A stretch of DNA of 64,000 bases from the NCBI RefSeq assembly GCF_004765795.1, contig NZ_SBIV01000009.1, forward strand, positions 62,001-126,000, in the 5' to 3' direction. The notes below the pieces were generated by a model. It did not search any database and had not been told where the DNA came from. It saw only the letters and a program-made list of their open reading frames with translations. Below, piece by piece: positions 33,845 through 46,520 of the stretch. The stretch is from Halorussus marinus. GTDB lineage: Archaea; Halobacteriota; Halobacteria; Halobacteriales; Haladaptataceae. Numbering within the stretch: position 1 is the stretch's first letter; the number at the start of each line of letters is the position of its first letter. The translations under genes were made by a program, and so were the position numbers.

Positions 33845-33911
33845 TTCCCCGCCTGCGCCGGCCTGCGGTCGCCGGAGCGAAGGTTCGATACGACCGTGGG
33901 ACCGATCGAGC

Positions 33912-33920
33912 CTTTGTTAT
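33912..33920 (-). promoter_or_regulatory. ATAACAAAG element (upstream of the PGF-CTERM gene)
   Basis: ATAACAAAG on the minus strand, about 147 bases before the ATG at 33765. Transcription would start near 33885 and run through the two mini-ORFs at 33762-33844. A divergent copy lies at 34070. Confidence 0.55.
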
Positions 33921-41830: not shown

Positions 41831-41839
41831 CTTTGTTAT
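41831..41839 (-). promoter_or_regulatory. ATAACAAAG element, core-promoter position
   Basis: ATAACAAAG on the minus strand 26-34 bases before the ATG at 41805, exactly where a TATA box stands for a leaderless gene. No conventional T/A-rich box is present at this position. Confidence 0.65.
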
Positions 41840-41961
41840 GGGCCGTCTGTCCCCCGACAAACCTGACCTGTCGGATCGTTCGGCGGTTATGCTTCCATTA
41901 CGGCCCCTCACTCGCTATTCAACGGAGTGTTTCGATTTCTCTCCCGGACCGTTCGGTAAAC

Positions 41962-42043
41962 GGCCACTACATTTAAATTGGTAAGCTAGTCTTGAATTGA
42001 AATCGGTACACTTTTGAATAGGTAACTTCCCATTGAGATACAC
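41962..42043 (+). promoter_or_regulatory. promoter copy 1 with two tandem GGTAA-N-TTGA motifs
   Basis: This 82-base segment aligns without gaps to 43710-43791 at 53 positions (65%). It has the TATA-like CTTTTGAA about 31 bases before the ATG, and two copies of a motif of about 16 bases: ATTGGTAAGCTAGTCTTGA and ATAGGTAACTTCCCATTGA. The copies are 40 bases apart, one before the TATA-like box and one over the expected start point. Confidence 0.6.
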
Positions 42044-43558
42044 ATGGCACGCGATGATGCGGCACGCGAGACGGAGTCCGAAACGTCCCTGCTCGACCGG
42101 CGGTCGTACCTCAAGATGGCGGGTGCGGCGGCGGCGTCGGTCGCGGCGGTCGGTGCGTCAAGCAGTACCGCCGACGCGGCCGACTACGAGACGATCGAGA
42201 TCCCCGCGGGCGAGCGCCGAGTGTTCGACGTCGGGTCGGGCGAGACCTTCGAGAACAAGCTGATCGACATCAGCGCCGACGGCGCTCACTTCAAGATCAT
42301 GACCAACGGCGACGGTTGGACCGTCCGGAACATCGGCGTCCGGGGCCGGAACAACGACCGGTCGGACACGTTCGGCTGTATCTACTGCCGGGCCGACGAG
42401 GGCGGCGAGGGTCTCGTCGAGAACGTCTACATGGGCGACGGCGCGGCCGACCGGTGTGGCCACGCCGCCTTTTCGGGCTACGGCAACGCCGGCCACGTCA
42501 CCATCCGGAACGTACACGTCCAGGGCTGGTCGGCCGACGGGATGTATCTGAGCCACCCCGGCGTCCCCGGCAACTCCGGCGGGACGTTCACGGTCGAGCG
42601 CGCGTTCGCGAAGAACAACAACATCGAGAACATTCGGATCGGCACCACGGGTAGCGAGATCCGCGACTCGGTCGTCCACGTCGAGGGCGAGAGCGCGGTC
42701 ACGAGCAACGAGTCGGGCCAGAAGAACCCCCGCGGGATCTGGTTCAAAGAGGAGACCGGCCTGCTGGCCGTGAACTGCGACGTGAAGGTCGACGGCGCGA
42801 CCGCCGTCTACGGCGGCGGGCGCGGCGGCGCGGGCACCCTCCGGAACTGCCGGGTCGACGGCTCGATCCGGGGCGACGTGACCGAGGAGAACGTCTCGGG
42901 CGACCCCGACGTCACCCCGCCCGAGACCGTCCCGATGTCCGCCGAGGCCGCGGCCGCGGGCGAGTCCGGCGGCGACGGCGGTAGCACCACTCAACCGACC
43001 ACCGACGCCGACCAGTCCGCAGACGAGGACGGAACGCTGTTCGAACTGATCAGCGCCGACGACGCGTCGAGCGTCACCTACGAGTTCACCGTCGAGGGGA
43101 GCGTCTCGAAGAACCTCTCGGGGGACAACTCCGCGGAGGTCGCCGACTCGATCACCGACAACGGCGACGGGACCGTGACGGTCTCGGGCGTCGGGGGCAA
43201 CGGGTACGGCGACTCCTTCTACGTTCAGGGGTCGATCACGGCGATCGACGTCGACGAGAGCGTCTGGACGCTCCGGTACGGCGGCGAGGAGGTGTCGGTC
43301 GAGGAGTTGGTCCTCCCGAACAAGCTGATCGTCGACGGCTCGAACCGACCGCGTGCGGTCACCACCTACACCTTCGAGGTCTCGGGGCGGGCCCGCAAGA
43401 GCGCCGACCTCGGGTCGGTCAACGCGTACGACGAGGTCTCGGACGGCGAGATCTCCGGTCGCATCGTCGGCGGGAAAGACGGCTACCGGTTCTCGGGCGA
43501 GGTCACCGGCTTCAGCATCGACGGCCCCGCCGACGTGCAGGTAGAGAACAACTCCTGA
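42044..43558 (+). CDS. Tat-exported beta-helix protein with duplicated C-terminal beta domains
   Basis: A 504-residue secreted protein. DRRSYLKMAGAAAASVAAVGAS is a Tat signal with no lipobox. Residues about 45-300 are a right-handed beta-helix (FKIMTNGDGWTVRNIGVRGR, VTIRNVHVQGWSADGMYLSH, AVNCDVKVDGATAVYGGG). A Ser/Thr/Asp linker (about 312-335) leads to two similar beta-rich units, TYEFTVEGSVSKNLSGDN and TYTFEVSGRARKSADLGS onward, which may bind carbohydrate or the cell surface. Acts outside the cell. It sits in the glycan island; a broken paralogue with a duplicated promoter follows at 43792. A lyase or epimerase role is possible but not demonstrated. Confidence 0.8.
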   Translation: MARDDAARETESETSLLDRRSYLKMAGAAAASVAAVGASSSTADAADYETIEIPAGERRVFDVGSGETFENKLIDISADGAHFKIMTNGDGWTVRNIGVRGRNNDRSDTFGCIYCRADEGGEGLVENVYMGDGAADRCGHAAFSGYGNAGHVTIRNVHVQGWSADGMYLSHPGVPGNSGGTFTVERAFAKNNNIENIRIGTTGSEIRDSVVHVEGESAVTSNESGQKNPRGIWFKEETGLLAVNCDVKVDGATAVYGGGRGGAGTLRNCRVDGSIRGDVTEENVSGDPDVTPPETVPMSAEAAAAGESGGDGGSTTQPTTDADQSADEDGTLFELISADDASSVTYEFTVEGSVSKNLSGDNSAEVADSITDNGDGTVTVSGVGGNGYGDSFYVQGSITAIDVDESVWTLRYGGEEVSVEELVLPNKLIVDGSNRPRAVTTYTFEVSGRARKSADLGSVNAYDEVSDGEISGRIVGGKDGYRFSGEVTGFSIDGPADVQVENNS

Positions 43559-43709
43559 TCGACGAATCGCTTCGACGCCGACCCTCGCGGCTAATCGGTC
43601 CCAAGCCCGGGAGAAACCGCTCGTTACTCCACGCTCGCCGTGAGACGGCTCGCGCGAGCGCTGTCCGTTGCAGACTGTTTCGGCCCTCCCGGATGACTGT
43701 TCCACCGAC

Positions 43710-43791
43710 GGCCAGTGCTTTTAAATTAGTAACTTCACATTGAGCGAAAGTCGGAAGCTTTTTGAAGTGGTAAGCAACCATTGAGAACTGC
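43710..43791 (+). promoter_or_regulatory. promoter copy 2 with two tandem GTAA-N-TTGA motifs
   Basis: Ungapped partner of 41962-42043. The motifs ATTAGTAACTTCACATTGA and GTGGTAAGCAACCATTGA are again 40 bases apart. The TATA-like CTTTTTGAA is about 31 bases before the ATG at 43792. Confidence 0.6.
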
Positions 43792-43989
43792 ATGGCACGC
43801 GACGATACGGCACGCGACCCCGGCACCGAACGCACTCGCCCCGACGAACGGTCACACCCCCGGCTGGCAGGTGTGGCCGCCACCCGTTCGGGCCGCACCG
43901 AGTCTCCCGTCCCCGCTGACACGACCCGGACGCTCGCGCCCGGCGACGCTCGGTCCGTCTGCTCCCCGGAGGGTCGAGATGGCGAGTAA
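43792..43989 (+). pseudogene. truncated paralogue of the Tat beta-helix gene, 65 codons
   Basis: The first 26 bases differ from those of the gene at 42044 by two (MARDDxARD/E in both), and the promoter is also shared. The Tat twin-Arg and the hydrophobic segment are lost (ERSHPRLAGVAATRSGR in place of DRRSYLKMAGAAAASV). An echo of the parent (TTRTLAPGDARSV against TIEIPAGERRVFDV) persists before the stop. It looks like the relic of a duplication that kept an intact promoter. The stop lies 11 bases inside the next gene, so it may survive as a leader cistron. Confidence 0.55.
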
Positions 43990-44203
43990 CGTTCAGGCCG
44001 GCCGCGAACGCTGGGAAGACGTGGCCCGCGATCCGGACCCCGAGGATCTGGGGTACGAACTCGACGACTGGGAGGTCATCCAGGCCCAGAAGGGCGATCG
44101 GGGCCACCTAATGTTCCTCCCCGACGACGAGGATCAGCTCCGCGAGGAGGCGTTCGTGGTGGCCGACGCCTGCTCGGTCTGCGACGTCGTCGACCGGATC
44201 TAG
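43979..44203 (+). CDS. small acidic haloarchaeal protein
   Basis: A 74-residue acidic protein (ERWEDVARDPDPEDLGYELDDWEVIQAQKGDRGHLMFLPDDEDQLREEAFVVADACSVCDVVDRI), with a CSVC pair near the C-terminus. GGAGGG six bases before the ATG is a good Shine-Dalgarno, which decides this start and makes it the second cistron behind the relic at 43792. The codon pattern is that of a real gene. Function unknown. Its stop overlaps the glmM stop (CTAG, 44200-44203). Confidence 0.7.
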   Translation: MASNVQAGRERWEDVARDPDPEDLGYELDDWEVIQAQKGDRGHLMFLPDDEDQLREEAFVVADACSVCDVVDRI

Positions 44204-45517: not shown

Positions 45518-46078
45518 TCAGTGCTCCTGGCCGTCGGCGCGGCTCAGTTCGGGCGGGGTGCCGACCTCGTCGGTCCGCCGGTAGTTGAGAAAGTGGACGA
45601 CCGACGAGACGCCGAACGCCACGAGGATCACCGTCGCCACCACGAGCCCCGAGAGCAACTCGAACGGGTAGACGTCGAGCCAGACCGCCGCGACCAGCGC
45701 GGAGCTCACCGCGACCAGCCCGAGGTAGTACCGGTCCCACGGGAACTGCTCGCGAGAGACCTCGCCGAGATAGAGGTTGAGATCCGACGCCCGGTCGCCG
45801 AGTCGGACCACGCCCGCGTCCCGATCGTACTCGACGATGTCGGCCTCATCGAGCTTCGGGAGGTGGGTCTGGTACAGCGAGATGTACACCCGCTTTCGCT
45901 GTTCGGTCGTGAGCGCCGCGAGCGTGGTTTCGTTTTCCCACGCCGCGACCTGCTCGGTGAGATCCGACAGCTCGGTTTCGCCGCCCTCCTGACGGAGGTA
46001 GTAGAGCGCGTATCGGCGTCTGGGGCTTTTCAGCACTTCGAACACCTCGTCTTGGGAGAGCTGGTCGGTTCTAGACAT
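45518..46078 (-). CDS. DUF7344-type winged-helix protein with two membrane helices
   Basis: A 186-residue protein. The N-terminal winged helix (EVFEVLKSPRRRYALYYLRQEG, LTEQVAAW, RKRVYISLYQTHLPKLDEADIV) is followed by the wing DRDAGVVRLGD, and then two membrane helices (YYLGLVAVSSALVAAVWL, LLSGLVVATVILVAFGVSSVV). This makes a membrane-tethered regulator, frequent in haloarchaea beside surface genes. It is first in a two-gene unit with glmM and the only recognised DNA-binding protein of the glycan island, hence a candidate regulator of it. Confidence 0.8.
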   Translation of the reverse strand: MSRTDQLSQDEVFEVLKSPRRRYALYYLRQEGGETELSDLTEQVAAWENETTLAALTTEQRKRVYISLYQTHLPKLDEADIVEYDRDAGVVRLGDRASDLNLYLGEVSREQFPWDRYYLGLVAVSSALVAAVWLDVYPFELLSGLVVATVILVAFGVSSVVHFLNYRRTDEVGTPPELSRADGQEH

Positions 46079-46384: not shown

Positions 46385-46393
46385 ATAACAAAG
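46385..46393 (+). promoter_or_regulatory. ATAACAAAG element of the sugar-nucleotide operon
   Basis: ATAACAAAG, 142 bases before the GTG at 46535. Transcription would start near 46420, leaving an unusually long 5' region for this organism, with a 23-codon frame at 46471-46542 whose stop overlaps the operon's first start codon by three bases on each side. Confidence 0.55.
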
Positions 46394-46520
46394 AGGCGTG
46401 CAGGGCATGGGGAGAATAACGCCCGGCCTTCCCCCGCTCGGGACGCACGGGCACACCCACTCGATCCCCTATGATCACGTTACCGACCGAAACGACTCGA
46501 TTCTCGACGCGCACAGCGCC

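Follow-up and report, generated by a model that had tools for sequence, protein, structure and literature searches.

A paired promoter element with 41-base spacing in Halorussus and its family, a putative operator of genes for exported proteins

Two promoters in a 64,000-nucleotide stretch of Halorussus marinus DNA (the window) carry the same sequence unit twice, with the starts of the two copies 41 bases apart. This paired architecture is found before homologous genes in 28 of 28 genomes of the host's family, which comprises Halorussus, Haladaptatus, and a third genus, and in none of 217 other genomes of the order. Judged from its sequence, the pair very probably serves as the binding site of a putative regulator.

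Promoter 1 (41962-42043) and promoter 2 (43710-43791) align without a gap over 82 bases with 53 identical positions, exactly as the original prediction had claimed. Shuffled controls for this match have a mean of 21.4 and a maximum of 42, with 0 of 200,000 reaching 53, and the next-best match to promoter 1 within the whole window is 36 of 82. The alignment extends into the first 26 coding bases. Within each promoter, the unit TTTrAAT-n-RGTAA-n5-cATTGAR is present twice and includes an AT-rich box, which is TTTAAAT in the upstream copy and the TATA box (TTTTGAAT/TTTTGAAG) in the downstream copy. The tandem copies had been predicted with a spacing of 40 bases, which measures 41. The predicted motif formula was one base too long; the true interior is GGTAA-N7-TTGA, and the upstream copy of promoter 2 reads AGTAA.

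In promoter 1, the upstream copy (41972-41996, forward strand; matrix score 35.3) is composed of box A (TTTAAAT, 41972-41978), box B (GGTAA, 41980-41984), and box C (TCTTGAA, 41990-41996). The downstream copy (42011-42037, forward strand; score 30.9) lies exactly 41 bases after it, with GGTAA at 41980 and 42021, and is composed of the TATA box (CTTTTGAAT, 42011-42019), box B' (GGTAA, 42021-42025), and box C' (CATTGAG, 42031-42037). The BRE-like box D (AAATCGGTA, 42000-42008, forward strand) is conserved in 71 promoters. Promoter 2 has the same layout on the forward strand: an upstream copy (43720-43744; score 37.1) with TTTAAAT at 43720-43726, AGTAA at 43728-43732, and CATTGAG at 43738-43744; a BRE-like box D (AAGTCGGAA, 43748-43756) recognized by alignment and by conservation in relatives; and a downstream copy (43759-43785; score 28.4) with TTTTTGAAG at 43759-43767, GGTAA at 43769-43773, and CATTGAG at 43779-43785. 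These four sites alone score above 28 in a matrix scan of the window, and the next best, at 10.8, is inside promoter 1. A sequence at about 33811 that had been proposed as similar is not a copy, and no matrix score near it exceeds 8.

Promoter 1 precedes a gene for a Tat-signal right-handed beta-helix protein (MARDDAARE...; 42044-43558, forward strand), homologues of which are encoded in all 28 family genomes. The protein has no Pfam or NCBIfam match. The best PDB neighbors of its AlphaFold model (pLDDT 74.8) include the PL3 pectate lyase 4yzx (prob 1.00, E 0.0093), and the model also resembles tailspike-like glycan enzymes, though the structural E-values are weak. Based on this model, the protein is likely a polysaccharide-acting enzyme or binder. 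Promoter 2 is followed by a decayed open reading frame of the MARD type, a relic (43792-43989, forward strand) that runs into the beginning of the following gene (ATGGCGAGTAA). This gene encodes a conserved 74-amino-acid protein (...CSVCDVVDRI; 43979-44203, forward strand). It starts inside the end of the relic and in several relatives follows an intact MARD gene; therefore, the relic may be a translated leader. Despite the decayed MARD frame, promoter 2 scores as high as working promoters, probably because it still drives the 74-amino-acid gene.

Upstream regions of homologous genes (71) were collected and aligned on CATTGA. Relative to the downstream CATTGA block, box A (TTTAAAT) lies at -58, box B (RGTAA) at -51, box C (CATTGAA) at -41, box D (RAATCGGAA) from -31 to -23, the TATA box (TTTTTGAAT) at -20, box B' (RGTAA) at -10, and box C' (CATTGAA) at 0. 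The conserved ATGGCACGCGA follows, its ATG 10-13 bases past the downstream CATTGA block. Pairwise identity across the 69 distinct paired promoters averages 0.87 for box A, 0.46 for B, 0.89 for C, 0.64 for D, 0.61 for the TATA box, 0.62 for B', 0.88 for C', and 0.36 for the spacers. Because box B stands at 0.46 and box C at 0.89, GGTAA is the weaker half of the unit and CATTGA the stronger. The two copies resemble each other most when offset by 41 (similarity 0.59, compared to at most 0.36 at all other offsets), and of the 67 promoters with a unique distal CATTGAA copy, 62 have it at 41. The consensus RGTAAtnnnGCATTGAA is an asymmetric unit in direct repeat, and no inverted repeat was found in it. 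The original prediction held that conservation is concentrated in the motifs while the spacers have diverged. Across these orthologous promoters, which are non-independent observations, motif boxes at 0.87-0.89 are far above spacers at 0.36 rather than equally conserved, but box D, a conserved spacer element in both window promoters and in relatives, had been missed.

The coding start of the MARD genes has a pattern of its own. Alanine codon 2 is GCA in 73 of 74 MARD genes (including 42044-42070 and 43792-43818), and codon 3 is CGC in all 74. GCA is the dominant alanine codon at position 7 (46 genes) and accounts for 8.4% of alanine codons later in the same genes. The coding start also contains the direct repeat ATGGCACGCGAC-n5-GGCACGCGA. 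The first codons of MARD genes are under nucleotide-level constraint.

A sequence model composed of blocks A to D (R1) gave 2-5 sites in each of the 28 family genomes and, at E 0.02, none in the 217 other genomes of the order; the second of the two scans had stricter filters. Nearly all strong matches precede Tat-signal genes whose product starts with MARD. The bearers are beta-helix proteins, GH16 enzymes (Pfam E 1.1e-23 and 5.9e-16), and other exported proteins, and the target set is Tat-exported, probably polysaccharide-acting proteins. The element also precedes proteins unrelated to the main family, namely GH16 and DUF7344 proteins. Within one genome, bearers occupy unlinked loci; in the host, one of them is a GH16 gene located on a different contig, whose element is partly degenerate and has a spacing of 40. 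A factor at these loci would therefore act in trans. The search beyond the duplication, which the original prediction had called for, thus recovered the element both family-wide and at unlinked loci, and neither of the two refuting conditions set by the prediction held.

Other sequences were noted during these scans. A palindrome at C1:393049 of the host was considered as a separate site and rejected, as it is the complementary-strand reading of the GH16 gene's MARD promoter. In several Halorussus genomes, genes for YdjM-type membrane proteins (five loci) have a single TATA-GGTAG-CATTGAA promoter. These genes possibly belong to the same regulon and were left out of it as a possible chance occurrence. 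Haladaptatus and the third genus have a conserved open reading frame of 42-43 amino acids (67 in one) that begins MAREQRNDRLP and has a related single-copy promoter, TTTTTAAAAT...ATATTGAAnnnCATGGCACG (eight loci).

The window encodes a DUF7344 protein with two C-terminal hydrophobic helices (45518-46078, reverse strand; PF24035, E 6.4e-33). Orthologues of this protein (at least 64% identity) are found in 27 of the 28 family genomes, and elsewhere none exceeds 53%. The sole family genome without one is a 62%-complete assembly. All 27 orthologues are located 0.7-3.5 kb from a paired promoter. The gene's own upstream region is without the element and has a different conserved sequence instead, leaving autoregulation through the element unsupported. 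Positions 41838-41848 (reverse strand), about 33905-33915, and about 46385-46400 hold a second shared promoter-like sequence, YATAACAAAG, close to where the neighboring sugar-polymer genes start, together with GGTAACAAAGTG, which lies in this conserved upstream region of the 45518 gene.

Of 18 Halorussus genomes, 17 encode a second, smaller DUF7344 protein; at the cut-off applied, Haladaptatus does not have it. Two members of this group match PF24035 with E-values of 9.7e-23 and 1.8e-20. About 112 bases (85 in one) before this gene, 15 of the 17 Halorussus orthologues have the block A-B-C. The sites score 19-35, compared to a simulated maximum of 9.1 in 3,000 trials, and the R1 model found six of them unaided, with no such promoter in its training. 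The host's own site is degenerate and scores 13.1. In its promoter, 60 to 110 bases upstream of the start, the small DUF7344 gene also has recurring GTTGCAAC-type elements (GTTGCAACGGTCGG, CGTTGCAATCGACGG), which may be the site of a second regulator.

Both candidate regulators belong to the DUF7344 (PF24035) family, which is itself uncharacterized. Its HTH_24 score of 21.3 is just under the cut-off of 21.9, and there is a weak ArsR-type NCBIfam match. A PDB profile search found nothing significant, and a single-sequence structure model (pLDDT 49.5) was unusable. Among the open-access papers searched, none names DUF7344 and no function or operator of the family was found, and nothing on the element was found in work on Halorussus promoters or haloarchaeal operators. 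The case for DUF7344 is one of guilt by association and a shared site, given the linkage of the 45518 gene and the site at the second DUF7344 gene. On these circumstantial grounds, the membrane protein at 45518 is the first-choice candidate regulator.

In Haloferax volcanii, the haloarchaeal core promoter is composed of a BRE (CGAAA), a TATA box (TTWT), and a -10 WW motif (PMC4983044). Box D of the paired element resembles this BRE, and the downstream box D, TATA box, and CATTGAA occupy the BRE, TATA, and WW places expected if transcription begins at the ATG or slightly ahead of it. The ATG lies approximately 29 bases after the TATA center, consistent with a leaderless transcript, the start of which is expected approximately 22-30 bases after TATA. 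The paired element departs from the core promoter in that CATTGAA and RGTAA are specific sequences whose conservation goes far past WW, and in having a second unit, lacking a BRE, 41 bp upstream. Haloarchaeal repressor elements over the WW motif are found in SPS3 of sptA (Natrinema) and in xacR (Haloferax) (PMC6085418). Those elements likewise lie between the TATA box and the start site; however, they are semi-palindromic, whereas the paired element is a direct repeat of an asymmetric unit over TATA and -10 and is common to a multi-gene regulon.

The reading we lean towards, by a modest preference, is a paired operator around one core promoter, bound by a trans-acting dimeric regulator that is likely a DUF7344 protein. 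In this reading, the promoter is leaderless or close to it, and the downstream copy lies over its functional TATA box and -10 (WW) region. At 41 bp, or about four helical turns, higher, the upstream copy would be on the same face of the DNA. A dimeric regulator would bind both copies cooperatively, the upstream copy strengthening binding, and on the downstream copy it would compete with TBP or RNA polymerase, resulting in repression. Repression is favored since both the TATA box and the -10 region fall within the downstream copy, although activation through the upstream copy could be envisaged instead. A signal linked to polysaccharide at the cell surface would lift the repression. The regulator would be a DUF7344 winged-helix protein, the first choice being the membrane protein encoded at 45518. 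Most winged-helix dimers prefer inverted-repeat sites, and the direct-repeat arrangement of the half-sites appears to weigh against such a dimer.

The likeness of the promoters could be a passive leftover of gene duplication, owed only to recent gene copying, and the bearers are indeed mostly homologous genes with similar first codons. This explanation is highly improbable and is refuted by the conservation profile, in which spacers fall to 36% identity while boxes are still at 87-89%; relic copies also retain intact promoters, and the element stands before the unrelated GH16 and DUF7344 proteins. Rather more credible, yet still unlikely, is that the pair represents two tandem core promoters of a special class, served by one particular combination of TFB and TBP, in which CATTGAA acts as an extended -10 element. 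A longer transcript would then begin 41 bases earlier, from the upstream copy, and a dedicated regulator would be unnecessary. In favor of this reading, a TATA-like box is present in both copies, the upstream TTTAAAT matches TATA very well, the -10 region is covered by CATTGAA, and in this gene family the promoters with a single copy retain TATA and CATTGAA with GTAA absent. However, 50 of 69 promoters have a BRE-like match (CGRAA at 4 of 5 positions or better, just upstream of TATA) ahead of the downstream TATA box and only 6 of 71 have one ahead of the upstream AT-rich box, against 10.5% of random 8-mers, and the upstream copy therefore looks like an operator rather than a second promoter. 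The downstream GTAA is found in 50 of 67 paired and 4 of 35 unpaired promoters; Fisher's p of 8e-10, uncorrected for shared ancestry, is a guide only, because the sequences are related and a few of the 35 are mis-sorted, including the window's promoter 1 with its distal copy TCTTGAA. A simple second start site would not need a GTAA that goes with pairing, and the full element, at 2-5 per genome and nearly always before one gene family, occurs too seldom to be a class of promoters. The presence of a BRE on only one copy and the tie of GTAA to pairing thus favor the paired operator over tandem core promoters.

Even with the paired operator accepted, its regulator may be a different protein, with the second DUF7344 gene a target and the 45518 gene a mere neighbor, an alternative that carries real weight while remaining the less probable one. 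Haladaptatus retains the pair without the second DUF7344 gene, the 45518 promoter is without the element, and each genome encodes dozens of DUF7344 candidates beside many other regulators. The linkage of 45518 to the pair may be no more than a by-product of the conserved cluster of sugar genes that surrounds it. Against this, the 45518 orthologue has the only DNA-binding-type domain among the cluster neighbors scanned, and it has the same distribution as the element.

For the paired operator, the boldest picture, offered as speculation with the odds well against it, is that a DUF7344 regulator tethered to the membrane and produced next to the cell-surface sugar cluster senses a signal at the surface and runs a family-wide secretome via 41-bp paired sites that would straddle the TATA box, with the invariant coding start ATGGCACGCGAC...GGCACGCGA as an additional, nucleotide-level component of this control unit. 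The strong-site targets are mostly exported proteins. To our knowledge, few haloarchaeal operators are defined well enough for a regulator to be assigned. Strictly family-wide and with a small, coherent target set, the element makes the function of DUF7344 directly testable. If true, this would be the first function and the first operator for a large uncharacterized family of haloarchaeal regulators.
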